Positions 17,502-28,325 of a stretch of 28,325 nucleotides of DNA are shown in pieces. A program made the translations under genes and the position numbers. Numbering within the stretch: position 1 is the stretch's first letter; each line of letters opens with the position of its first letter. This stretch comes from a virus. The stretch spans positions 1 to 28,325 of IMG/VR virus record IMGVR_UViG_3300025128_000238. One strand, 5' to 3'. The notes below the pieces were generated by a model. The model did no database searches, was not told the origin of the DNA, and saw only the letters and a list, made by a program, of their open reading frames with translations.

Positions 17502-17811
17502 CTCTTATTATCTCCTCAACGCTTCGCTCGTTTCTTGTGACGAACTCTGCACCTAATGCTGTGTATCCTGCCTTATCAATCCACGAATCTTCGTGGTCTA
17601 TAGTCTCAAGTAGTCTGCTTGTTTTGACCCAGTCCATCATCAATGCGACGTGAGCTGCGGTCAGGTATCCGTGAGATCTTAACGCCCCACTTATGATTAT
17701 GTTCCATCCCTCTGCAATGCGGTCATGGTTTTCGAAAGCGTCCCCGTAGTCTTTTGCACGAGGTCCGTTAACTAATTTTTCTGCTGCTTCTAGTAGTTCT
17801 TTCCTGTTCAT
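17476..17811 (-). CDS. DUF6378-like protein (possible nucleotide pyrophosphohydrolase relative)
   Basis: 111 aa from ATG 17811, chosen because it overlaps the upstream stop as ATGA; a GTG nine bases earlier is the only alternative. The sequence EAAEKLVNGPRAKDYGDAFE, then HDRIAEGW, VALMMDWVKTSRL and EDSWIDKAGYTALGAEF matches the pattern I know as DUF6378, a small all-helical family often found in phages and thought to relate to MazG-type nucleotide pyrophosphohydrolases. The E/D-rich helices (ENHDRIAE, EDSWID) could coordinate a metal. It lies between the PAPS-reductase-like gene and DNA polymerase, consistent with nucleotide-pool control. Family fairly sure; enzymatic activity inferred. Confidence 0.7.
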   Translation of the reverse strand: MNRKELLEAAEKLVNGPRAKDYGDAFENHDRIAEGWNIIISGALRSHGYLTAAHVALMMDWVKTSRLLETIDHEDSWIDKAGYTALGAEFVTRNERSVEEIIRDAKKSIRK

Positions 17812-18617
17812 CCTGTACACTCCCCATCATCTTTCTGGCATAGGTATGCCTCATTATCGAATATCCAGTCAGCTTGCCTATCTACAAACTCTCCGAGTCC
17901 TTTGTATGTTCTTACGTCGTGAAAAGAGTTTTGTTTCTTTTCTTCCCACGCTTGCCACCACTCCATGCGTTCTGGATACTCTCGCCACATAGCAGCTAAC
18001 GTCGCTTCACTTTTTAAAAAACAACCGTCACAATTTCCTGATCCCGGTTTGATGTACAAATCAAAAGGTGCCTTTGACCAAAAAGACATGACATCTCGTT
18101 TCGTGACCCCTGCATCTGCCAACGGAAACCAGTTTGTCCAACGCTTATCTTTACTTGGTTTAACTCTCTTAGCTTCATCGGCTCGAATGCCTATTGTATT
18201 TGTCCAGTGCTCCCATCCTATGGACAGAAGATACCGACGCATTGTTTTTACTTTTAGTTCTTGTGTACACGACCTTCGAAATACGTTTGGTAACATGTTG
18301 AAAGACAGATACTTGTCGAAAGGTTCTCCCTTTCTTGCCGCTTCATTCCAGTTTGTTATGTTAAAATGCGCTGTTCCATTAGCATATCTGTTTGACGGGG
18401 CACGATCATATTCCAACCATGTTACATCAACACCAATATATTTTTGTACATCTCGCACAAAGTCCAGTGTCCCTGGCATCTCTCTTCCAGTATTGGCAAA
18501 CAAAACTTTACAGTCTGGACGCAGCCCGTCATTTGCTTCTACAATCTGGTGAAGCATGTAAGCAGAAGTTCTACCTCCACTAAAACTTATTAGAACATTC
18601 CCTTCGGGAAGTTTCAT
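17808..18617 (-). CDS. PAPS reductase-like PP-loop ATPase family protein
   Basis: 269 aa. The PP-loop is SFSGGRTSA at 11-19, followed by ANTGREMPGTLDFV (41-54), typical of adenine-nucleotide alpha-hydrolase proteins of the PAPS/APS reductase superfamily. Cysteines C117 (RRSCTQELK), C196 and C199 (GNCDGCFLK), and C260 and C267 near the C-terminus could bind a metal or Fe-S cluster. The family includes true sulfonucleotide reductases, DndC-type phosphorothioation enzymes and many phage members of unknown substrate. No DndD/E or thioredoxin partner is in the window, so a role in sulfur metabolism, DNA modification or RNA modification is open. Overlaps both neighbours as ATGA. Confidence 0.8.
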   Translation of the reverse strand: MKLPEGNVLISFSGGRTSAYMLHQIVEANDGLRPDCKVLFANTGREMPGTLDFVRDVQKYIGVDVTWLEYDRAPSNRYANGTAHFNITNWNEAARKGEPFDKYLSFNMLPNVFRRSCTQELKVKTMRRYLLSIGWEHWTNTIGIRADEAKRVKPSKDKRWTNWFPLADAGVTKRDVMSFWSKAPFDLYIKPGSGNCDGCFLKSEATLAAMWREYPERMEWWQAWEEKKQNSFHDVRTYKGLGEFVDRQADWIFDNEAYLCQKDDGECTG

Positions 18618-26546: not shown

Positions 26547-26787
26547 CCTTGACCACCTCCCATACGCCCTCTGCGCCTGCGTCTATATTAGTATCTCGGA
26601 TCAAACCTTTGTTGTGCAGCTGAGATAAATTATTCCTCACAATCGATAGCTTTAAACCCATCCGGTCTGCGAGTTGCCGCGCTGTCCCAGGACCTCGATC
26701 GAGTTCCGCCAAGACTTGCTCCTTGCGCGTGAGTGCCTTGTTACTTTGACGCTTACTGGTTAATCGTTTCCAAAATTCTTTGATCAT
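26539..26787 (-). CDS. Winged helix-turn-helix regulator
   Basis: 82 aa. LTRKEQVLAELDRGPGTARQ followed by LADRMGLKLSIVRNNLSQLH and NKGLIRDTN is a typical wHTH with recognition helix at about 45-59 and wing at 62-76, as in small MarR/ArsR-like or replication-initiator-like domains. The N-terminal 20 residues are basic (KRLTSKRQSNK). Start overlaps the XRE gene stop by one base (TAATG). Probably a DNA-binding transcription factor acting on phage or host promoters. Confidence 0.7.
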   Translation of the reverse strand: MIKEFWKRLTSKRQSNKALTRKEQVLAELDRGPGTARQLADRMGLKLSIVRNNLSQLHNKGLIRDTNIDAGAEGVWEVVKDV

Positions 26788-27206
26788 TAGTCTTCTCCTT
26801 TGTGTTTAATCCTTGTGTTCACACCTAGATTATAGATGCATTCTTTTTTAAATTCACATAAACTTTTATGAACCCTTGCAAGACCTGCGGCGGCTCCCTC
26901 ATTTGGGTTACATTCATTAATCAAATCTTCCAATCGATCCACGACGTAGTGCATACATACTCTGTCATCTATCATGTTTGTTTTCCTCTTTCTTTTATTT
27001 ATTGGACGAGAGTTTTTGTATTCAATCTCGTCTGTATCAAAATCTAATCCAAAAAAATCCATGAGTAATATTTCTACGCTTTGGCAAGGTCTAGACTGTG
27101 CTTTCTCAAACTGACTGATTGCCGCTTGAGACACACCGATTATATTTGCCAGTTCTTTTTGGGTTAAACCTTCATCCACTCTCAACATTCTCAGATCGTG
27201 TTTCAT
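26787..27206 (-). CDS. XRE/Cro-type HTH regulator
   Basis: 139 aa from ATG 27206, chosen over ATG 27212 because AGAGG at 27214-27218 is 7 nt from the former and only 1 nt from the latter. Residues ~5-55 (MLRVDEGLTQKELANIIGVS, QAAISQFEKAQSRPCQSVEI) form a classic Cro/CI-type HTH. A basic patch (NKRKRKTN, ~70-77) links to a C-terminal helical part with C84, C99, C116 and C123. No LexA-type peptidase motif, so a Cro-like or host-directed regulator is more likely than a RecA-cleavable repressor. It overlaps the upstream gene by 35 bp. An internal ATG with its own Shine-Dalgarno lies at 26975. Confidence 0.8.
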   Translation of the reverse strand: MKHDLRMLRVDEGLTQKELANIIGVSQAAISQFEKAQSRPCQSVEILLMDFFGLDFDTDEIEYKNSRPINKRKRKTNMIDDRVCMHYVVDRLEDLINECNPNEGAAAGLARVHKSLCEFKKECIYNLGVNTRIKHKGED

Positions 27207-27393
27207 CCGCATACCTCTTTTCTAATTCATTAAGTCTTCTCAATTTATTTTGAAGTTCTCCCTTGCAAACTAAATAACCGCTATTCAAAGCTATCCACAA
27301 AAACTTTTGATATAGTTCATGTGCTTCATCCGTTTCGTAGTGCTTTCTGTTTTCCATTTGCCAATCTTTTACTTTTAAATATTTACTCATCAT
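27172..27393 (-). CDS. Small helical protein of unknown function
   Basis: 73 aa from ATG 27393 (MMSKYLKVKDWQMENRKHYE). An earlier in-frame start would lie inside the upstream gene with no ribosome-binding site. GGAGAGG sits just before the tandem ATGs (27393 and 27390), so either may be used. The centre (ELYQKFLWIALNSGYLVCKG) is an amphipathic helix and the C-terminal half (LQNKLRRLNELEKRYADET) a short coiled coil. It overlaps both neighbours. No family recognised. Confidence 0.55.
   Translation of the reverse strand: MMSKYLKVKDWQMENRKHYETDEAHELYQKFLWIALNSGYLVCKGELQNKLRRLNELEKRYADETRSENVESG
27214..27218 (-). promoter_or_regulatory. Ribosome-binding site deciding the XRE gene start
   Basis: AGAGG on the minus strand, 7 nt before ATG 27206 and 1 nt before ATG 27212; the spacing favours the downstream ATG. 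Confidence 0.6.
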
Positions 27394-27578: not shown

Positions 27579-28325
27579 TTATCGAACCTCCATGTAACTT
27601 TCGATTAACCCTTGCGCGACTTGCGCCGTGATGGCGTTTCCATAGGCGCGGAGGCGTCCCACTCTGGCGGTAGCCCCATCAGCCAACGGGAATGTGTCGG
27701 GTTCAACTGGCCTCCACTTTCCATCTCGGCACAAGAGCCAGTCCGCAGATGACCAGTAGCCGTTAGTCTCATAGGCTCGGGCTTCGGTGTCACCTCCCCC
27801 TTCGCCTCCATCACCGCTTCGATCATCTCGGGAGATACTTGCTCCCTCAGATTGCACGGAAACGATCTGTTCTTGCGCGTGGTTTGATGCATCTTGATCA
27901 TTGCTTCTCGGCTCCGAAGAGGCAGACTGTCCATCGTGTTGGGTGTCGCCCACCCTGCCATCTTCGACAACTGGGTCAGACTGCTTCCCGTCATTCCGTC
28001 CGTGATCCCCGAACCTCCCCTCGTGCCGTCCGTTGCCGATGGCGTAGTCCACCCCGACATCTGTGCTTGCTCTGGAAGATTGTGACCCCGAGTGTTCCAT
28101 GCCTTGACCGACTCTGGTTTCGCCGCTCCCTTGTGATCCGCCGTGGTCGGTGTCGCCCATCCCCACAGTACCGCTACCACTTCCTCCAGATTGGATTTGT
28201 TGCGGTTCGCTAACTTGTCTCGGTTCTGTTCCGTGATCTCGGGATGCACCTTGTTCGCTCTCGGCGTAGGCCAACCTGTCAGTTGTGCTGCCACGTCCAA
28301 TGTGTCCGTGCTGATCTTGCCGTTG
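27579..28325 (-). CDS. DNA cytosine methyltransferase C-terminal region, frame A (partial; GNAI-containing end)
   Basis: Open for 248 codons from the window edge to TAA 27579. The C-terminal ~65 residues are a strong match to phage C5-cytosine methyltransferases as I know them: NGYWSSADWLLCRDGKWRPV, EPDTFPLADG, then RVGRLRAYGNAITAQVAQ, i.e. motif IX/X-like sequence including GNAI. The preceding ~170 residues are Gly/Ser/Asp/Gln-rich and hydrophilic (GMGDTDHGGSQGSGETRVGQ), a composition also found in the target-recognition region of this variant. Its stop lies 4 nt before the next gene, which fits the compact operon. It is in the -1 frame relative to the overlapping frame B. Which frame carries the N-terminal catalytic domain lies outside the window, though frame B reads more naturally at the edge. 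Confidence 0.65.
   Translation of the reverse strand, partial: QRQDQHGHIGRGSTTDRLAYAESEQGASRDHGTEPRQVSEPQQIQSGGSGSGTVGMGDTDHGGSQGSGETRVGQGMEHSGSQSSRASTDVGVDYAIGNGRHEGRFGDHGRNDGKQSDPVVEDGRVGDTQHDGQSASSEPRSNDQDASNHAQEQIVSVQSEGASISRDDRSGDGGEGGGDTEARAYETNGYWSSADWLLCRDGKWRPVEPDTFPLADGATARVGRLRAYGNAITAQVAQGLIESYMEVR
27605..28324 (-). CDS. DNA cytosine methyltransferase C-terminal region, frame B (partial; WPTP/SRWLMGLPPEW variant)
   Basis: Open for 239 codons from the window edge to TAA 27605, overlapping frame A throughout. It reads NGKISTDTLDVAAQLTGWPT, then repeated GW-TP units (LWGWATPTTADH, MSGWTTPSATDG, MAGWATPNTMDS), MRLTATGHLRTGSCAEMESG, GQLNPTHSRWLMGLPPEWDA and a basic end (SRRKSRKG). I recognise both the GWPTP repeats and the SRWLMGLPPEWD ending from another large group of phage methyltransferases. 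It lacks a GN-containing motif X. The edge sequence (NGKISTDTLDVAAQLTGWPT) suggests that the upstream catalytic part is in this frame. Sequence-specific cytosine methylation of phage DNA is the likely role. Confidence 0.7.
   Translation of the reverse strand, partial: NGKISTDTLDVAAQLTGWPTPRANKVHPEITEQNRDKLANRNKSNLEEVVAVLWGWATPTTADHKGAAKPESVKAWNTRGHNLPEQAQMSGWTTPSATDGTRGGSGITDGMTGSSLTQLSKMAGWATPNTMDSLPLRSREAMIKMHQTTRKNRSFPCNLREQVSPEMIEAVMEAKGEVTPKPEPMRLTATGHLRTGSCAEMESGGQLNPTHSRWLMGLPPEWDASAPMETPSRRKSRKG

Follow-up and report, generated by a model that had tools for sequence, protein, structure and literature searches.

One phage gene appears to encode both subunits of a split C5-methyltransferase in two overlapping reading frames, with the second subunit (beta) initiated internally and endowed with a modular specificity; we place the probability of this reading at about 0.8. 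The gene lies at the right end of the window, the 28,325-base virus record that was analysed, which also holds phage replication and virion genes and whose end cuts through the methyltransferase gene. In the proposed arrangement, frame A would encode the alpha subunit, made of a SAM-binding/catalytic half (motifs I-VIII), a disordered stop-free linker and a motif X helix. Frame B, read in +1 within alpha, would encode beta, which would consist of a leader over the alpha core, one to eight recognition modules of about 30-40 amino acids and a motif IX-like segment. Separate translation of beta would begin at an internal start codon, preceded by a Shine-Dalgarno sequence of its own in the group of loci to which the window belongs, and beta would join alpha and confer sequence specificity on the assembled enzyme. 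The gain, loss and exchange of whole modules would then alter the set of methylated sites, a change that probably lets the phage escape host restriction.

The two frames in the window

On the minus strand, frame A is open over 27579-28325 and frame B over 27605-28324, B being +1 of A in the direction of transcription. As the earlier note on this DNA had it, both frames run open to the window edge and their stops are 26 bp apart. The features of the gene are as follows:

27579-28325, minus strand: frame A, C-terminal 248 aa of the putative alpha subunit (C5-methyltransferase); open frame with a match to phrog_363, its N-terminus lying beyond the contig end
27771-28325, minus strand: A, linker; kept open, amino acids unconstrained, disorder predicted in relatives
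27630-27659, minus strand: A, motif X (GRLRAYGNAI); invariant columns in the A alignment
27605-28324, minus strand: frame B, C-terminal 239 aa of the putative nested beta (recognition modules and motif IX-like end); open frame with matches to phrog_31772 and phrog_1008, selection in relatives
28277-28324, minus strand: B, tail of module type 0 (NGKISTDTLDVAAQLT); module clustering
28163-28276, minus strand: B, module type 12 (GWPTPRANKVHPEITEQN...); module clustering
28055-28162, minus strand: B, module type 10 (GWATPTTADHKGAAKPES...); module clustering
27956-28054, minus strand: B, module type 1 (GWTTPSATDGTRGGSGITDG...); module clustering
27773-27955, minus strand: B, module type 5 (GWATPNTMDSLPLRSREAMIK...); module clustering, the type also occurring in relatives of a Paenibacillus copy (L271, L274)
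27656-27715, minus strand: B, motif IX-like element GGQLNPTHSRWLMGLPPEWD; near-invariant in the B alignment

Since the contig stops within the gene, the N-terminal parts of both frames in the window were inferred from close relatives.

Both translations had been described as family-like, and profile searches with each one separately bore this out. The A fragment of the window matched phrog_363, labelled 'DNA methyltransferase' (E 7e-14), and B matched phrog_31772 (E 3e-40) and phrog_1008 (E 1e-12), which carry the same label. No Pfam match above cut-off was obtained for the window fragment of either frame; full-length relatives of A match PF00145 (E 1e-10 to 2e-16) and show an M.HaeIII/M.HhaI-like fold. 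B had no match in Pfam or NCBIfam, and a search of PDB sequences with B returned chance matches only. The proposal that both frames are methyltransferase C-termini consequently holds for A and fails for B as a C-terminus with a catalytic domain of its own; B looks like the recognition part that is missing from A.

Two other genes of the window may be mentioned here. An XRE-type regulator of the phage repressor families (26787-27212, minus strand) follows the methyltransferase gene downstream at a distance of a few hundred bases, and a phosphoadenosine phosphosulfate reductase family protein (17808-18617, minus strand) is encoded between the DNA polymerase and helicase genes.

Spread of the arrangement and constraint on both frames

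Related loci were collected from IMG/VR, GTDB genomes and plasmids, and 241 distinct loci could be resolved by motifs after removal of duplicates. In 230 of the 241, recognition-like modules and an LMGxP element lie in +1 of the catalytic core while the core frame stays open through both. The layout is seen in Pseudomonadota prophages at one end of the range and, at the other, in phages whose loci are related to plasmid-borne ones of Bacillota and Bacteroidota. In most groups motif X shares the frame of the core; among the 63 loci of the group retrieved with the Bacteroidota copy, the motif pattern picked it up in only 15. Bacterial isolate genomes show the same layout, and sequencing error was rejected on this ground as the cause of the two frames. 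A tblastn search of phage records gave 198 with A and 194 with B, essentially the same set, including the well-studied phages N15 and epsilon15.

Both frames are annotated in phages K1ind2 and fTaEco03, where the K1ind2 names, 'C-specific methylase' and 'Mte8-like protein', correspond to the A and B families, and PGAP gives a single CDS at the locus in the E. coli genomes looked at. In PHROGs, the A family (phrog_363) and the B families (phrog_1008/phrog_31772) are filed as separate 'DNA methyltransferases', and no text was found in the literature that connects them as the two frames of a single gene. Nor did the literature covered, with most subscription papers and REBASE lying outside the search, yield an earlier description of such an overlap in phages. 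Judged from these loci and records, the arrangement is common to hundreds of related phages and prophages across several bacterial phyla, and most annotations give one frame.

The third position of an A codon is the second of a B codon, and the third position of a B codon is the first of an A codon; therefore, the silent position of one frame is sensitive in the other. Selection was assessed from transversions at 4-fold versus 2-fold sites in each frame, sites that differ just in the silence of the change, with transitions as the control. Over 34 independent close pairs, picked greedily and not from a tree, differences at A third positions amounted to 4.7% (4-fold) against 0.57% (2-fold) (p 3e-30), and at B third positions to 5.7% against 0.93% (p 3e-27). 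The catalytic core is strongly selected in A and more weakly but significantly in B (p 2e-4), and the motif IX/X end is selected in both frames (p 9e-8 and 6e-8). In the variable region only B is selected (p 1e-23, against 0.81 for A), the differences at A-codon positions 1, 2 and 3 being 15, 4 and 2%. The window compared with its relative L006 gives the same kind of picture there, with 35, 9 and 3 differing sites by A codon position and 40 changed A residues against 10 in B. A set of 32 pairs taken from bacterial genomes gave the same result (B over the core, p 5e-11; IX/X end, p 4e-7). In the Bacillota-type phages, B was selected in the variable region (p 3e-4) and its selection over the core was not significant (p 0.44).

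Stop codons tell the same story from another side. None of 207 neighbouring genes has a stop-free +1 frame. A first count of stops in the loci is partly circular, as the region was bounded by the B frame, and was repeated with limits set on A alone. For this core test, covering motifs I-VIII, the expectation was obtained by shuffling synonymous A codons, on which the expected numbers depend: B has 1 stop against 51 expected in 75 viral loci and 0 against 71 in 62 bacterial loci, while the third frame is as expected (279 against 285 and 256 against 263, respectively). Conversely, A has no stop in the variable region of 76 loci where 222 are expected given B, the control frame having 631 against 646. 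Eight conventional methyltransferases, used as a further control, have 4-20 stops in their +1 frame. The earlier assertion that the double open frame exceeds chance is thus upheld by the neighbouring-gene counts and the shuffled codons alike.

These results leave next to no probability for the reading in which coding is confined to a single frame, the other being a fossil or a chance open frame. The variable region of A, with no constraint on its amino acids, would fit such a frame; against this, the C-terminal end is selected in both frames and the variable region in B, in three separate data sets, and stops are depleted in both directions. The earlier note had offered a fossil of the ancestral frame as one of its two options, which the substitution and stop tests reject, and had named stops or neutral drift in one frame of the homologues as what would speak against overprinting, the opposite of what was found, both frames being conserved and selected. 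Its other option, an overprinted gene, agrees with the data: both frames are under purifying selection in relatives and neither is a fossil.

Anatomy of the proposed alpha and beta and the probable expression of beta

Full-length relatives show A to be a C5-methyltransferase with motifs I-VIII, including the catalytic core motifs PCQ and GEQV/ENV, followed by about 80-250 residues that are stop-free, unconstrained in sequence and predicted to be disordered, and then by motif X (GNA[IV]) in the same chain as the core. Alpha was modelled from L009, which is 76% identical to the window in A over the shared fragment. The AlphaFold model has high confidence for residues 1-170, disorder for 170-343 and an ordered motif X helix, and its best PDB matches in Foldseek are M.HaeIII and M.HhaI. 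Between motifs VIII and X of alpha there is no recognisable recognition domain and no motif IX. A monomeric-type enzyme would have the two in the catalytic chain; here, the motif IX-like element is in B alone.

B sits where A is without a target-recognition domain. It is nested in A and comprises a leader over the core, one to eight modules of about 30-40 residues (GWxTPxAxD...), a motif IX-like end with the consensus GGQLNPxHxRWLMGLPPEW, of which WLMG.P..W is invariant in the B alignment, and a basic tail. Clustering of 606 modules from 215 B proteins gave recurrent types in varying positions and orders. After the tail of type 0, the window has the order 12-10-1-5, while its relatives have 0-12-1-5 (L009), 0-10-1-5 (L012) and 0-6-12-10-15-5 (L010). 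The AlphaFold model of beta alone is poor (pLDDT 51), which tells against the two-subunit reading.

The assignment of the B end is a motif-level call, made from a short motif, from where it lies and from three bridging relatives, and we hence describe it as motif IX-like. B gave no significant match to a home-made motif IX profile, which was small and weak and built from conventional methyltransferases of the same genomes. The bridging sequences are three relatives of a Streptomyces plasmid copy in which the modules are in +1 and the LMGxP element is in frame with motif X (RLSPAFVEWLMGLPGGH...ALGNGVVPQQ), which would link the B element to motif IX. In four loci of actinobacterial type (L238, L318, L319 and L328), the modules are in +1 and the motif IX-like element is back in frame with motifs I-VIII and X; by their motif layout, these are a different split of the same enzyme.

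Alternatively, B could be an accessory protein that was overprinted on the gene and serves another purpose, such as anti-restriction or DNA binding, without being part of the methyltransferase. The searches of Pfam, NCBIfam and PDB sequences, all of them empty for B, and a leader with no recognisable fold would be in keeping with this. We consider it quite unlikely, however, since the recognition domain and motif IX are missing from alpha exactly where B sits, the end of B looks like motif IX, this element shares its frame with motif X in the three distant relatives, and alpha alone would have no recognition domain.

How B would be expressed is suggested by start signals inside alpha. Within the conserved DERSIxDV segment of alpha, the window's group has AGGAG followed by ATG in frame B, and all 17 AGGAG sites have a B-frame ATG. 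The Arg codon that forms the Shine-Dalgarno sequence is AGG in 18 of 39 distinct sites, compared with 10% elsewhere in A. A B-frame ATG with a Shine-Dalgarno match of at least 5 nt was found in 62 of the 75 loci of this group against 6 of 75 for the control frame. About 13 of these 75 loci and most loci of other groups are without a clear Shine-Dalgarno sequence for B, and outside the window's group the candidate B starts are weaker or later. From the start signals, internal initiation of B can be called well supported for the loci grouped with the window and less well supported for the others.

The same signals bear on a programmed +1 frameshift, in which ribosomes would start in A and shift into B to yield a fusion of core, modules and motif IX beside full-length A. 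Such a shift would join the catalytic half to the recognition modules in one chain, could occur anywhere as the frames run parallel, and would suit the Bacillota-type phages in which selection on B over the core was not significant. We nonetheless regard it as unlikely: the fusion needs neither an open nor a selected B over the core, yet B is both; internal B starts are conserved; and the fusion would be without motif X, which lies in A. The G-rich site that the earlier note had singled out for -1 frameshifting, AAGGGGGAG, does exist, at 27794-27802 rather than 27792-27800, but is present in just 10 of 83 loci, and hence no conserved slippery site emerged from scoring for AAGGGGGAG alone. Likewise, its suggestion of isoforms with a common N-terminus and an ending set by the choice of frame is not supported, given a B frame that stays open and under selection well upstream, across the catalytic core, and that has its own start codon and Shine-Dalgarno sequence in most loci of the window's group.

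Known systems, significance and exceptional loci

Known systems offer partial parallels to the proposed arrangement. In the multispecific phage C5-methyltransferases of the SPR/phi3T type, small recognition modules, several per enzyme, lie between motif VIII and motif IX and are gained and lost as units. The genes described here are alike in having several small modules gained and lost in this manner; the SPR/phi3T modules, however, are in one chain and one frame, whereas those found here are in +1, in another frame and another protein.

A second comparison is M.EcoHK31I, a two-polypeptide C5-methyltransferase with the target YGGCCR, to which M.EaeI is similar; Lee et al. reportedly described in 1995 that the gene for the small subunit of M.EcoHK31I is nested out of frame within that for the large subunit. 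The large subunit of M.EcoHK31I has motifs I-VIII and X and the small subunit motif IX, and the recognition domain has been predicted in the larger subunit (PMC3404938), which counts against our reading, since this is the one analogue found. As in that enzyme, A has motifs I-VIII and X without IX, and, as reportedly there too, a second gene is nested in the other frame (230/241 loci). M.EcoHK31I, however, is part of a restriction-modification system, with one specificity and the recognition domain predicted in its large subunit, whereas here beta carries recognition-like modules, several of them, sequence constraint is absent from the alpha linker and the arrangement is wide in phages and prophages. 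Several exchangeable recognition modules in beta are, on our best explanation, what would be added to an M.EcoHK31I-like division of motifs. M.AquI is also a C5-methyltransferase split into two chains (PMC3404938), but a single break there leaves both motif IX and motif X to the second subunit, unlike the present division with the IX-like element in B and X in A.

Out-of-frame coding inside a methylase gene whose own frame stays open has also been described for the ShiLan domain of an actinophage DNA methylase (PMC11855218). ShiLan is an inserted HNH endonuclease and no part of the methylase. A comparable insertion was seen in one of our loci (L062, 3047-4549, plus strand), where an HNH/endonuclease VII-like segment in frame B (phrog_3322, E 2e-23; phrog_3118, E 4e-11) is continuous with B on both sides and A stays open; L075, a relative of L062, is a candidate for the same insertion.

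Going beyond the single gene, we lean slightly towards the view that these loci form a widespread class of phage methyltransferases in which recognition resides in a separate, out-of-frame protein of exchangeable modules, so that specificity would be reshuffled module by module and the overlap would ask of alpha just that it be stop-free. Each module may read a different target, which would give multispecific protection from restriction. It can be speculated that a pair of compensating indels, flanking the recognition part and motif IX, arose in an ancestral one-frame enzyme; the still canonical order of motifs along the DNA would thereby be accounted for.

At about 150-540 codons, the overlap would be one of the longest, and one of the most widespread, of the same-strand gene overlaps that phages conserve, and the alpha linker would be a protein segment maintained just for being free of stops. 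If beta is the specificity subunit, then the annotated methylase alone cannot predict the methylation motifs of a phage, knock-outs of the gene affect two proteins, and the modules provide a natural set for learning a DNA-recognition code.

A few loci deviate from the common layout. The Bacteroides finegoldii plasmid copy (L239) has three in-frame TGA codons in A (1381, 1954 and 2452) with B open, reflecting either decay or a recoded stop. In L082 and L161, a stop interrupts A in the variable region and B is intact. In L018, L043 and L313, an indel switches the frame inside the gene, fusing the N-terminal part of A to the C-terminal part of B or the reverse. L018 and L043 look like chimeric frames because one indel breaks both frames at one place; the fusions in all three loci are probably assembly errors and possibly natural single-chain variants.
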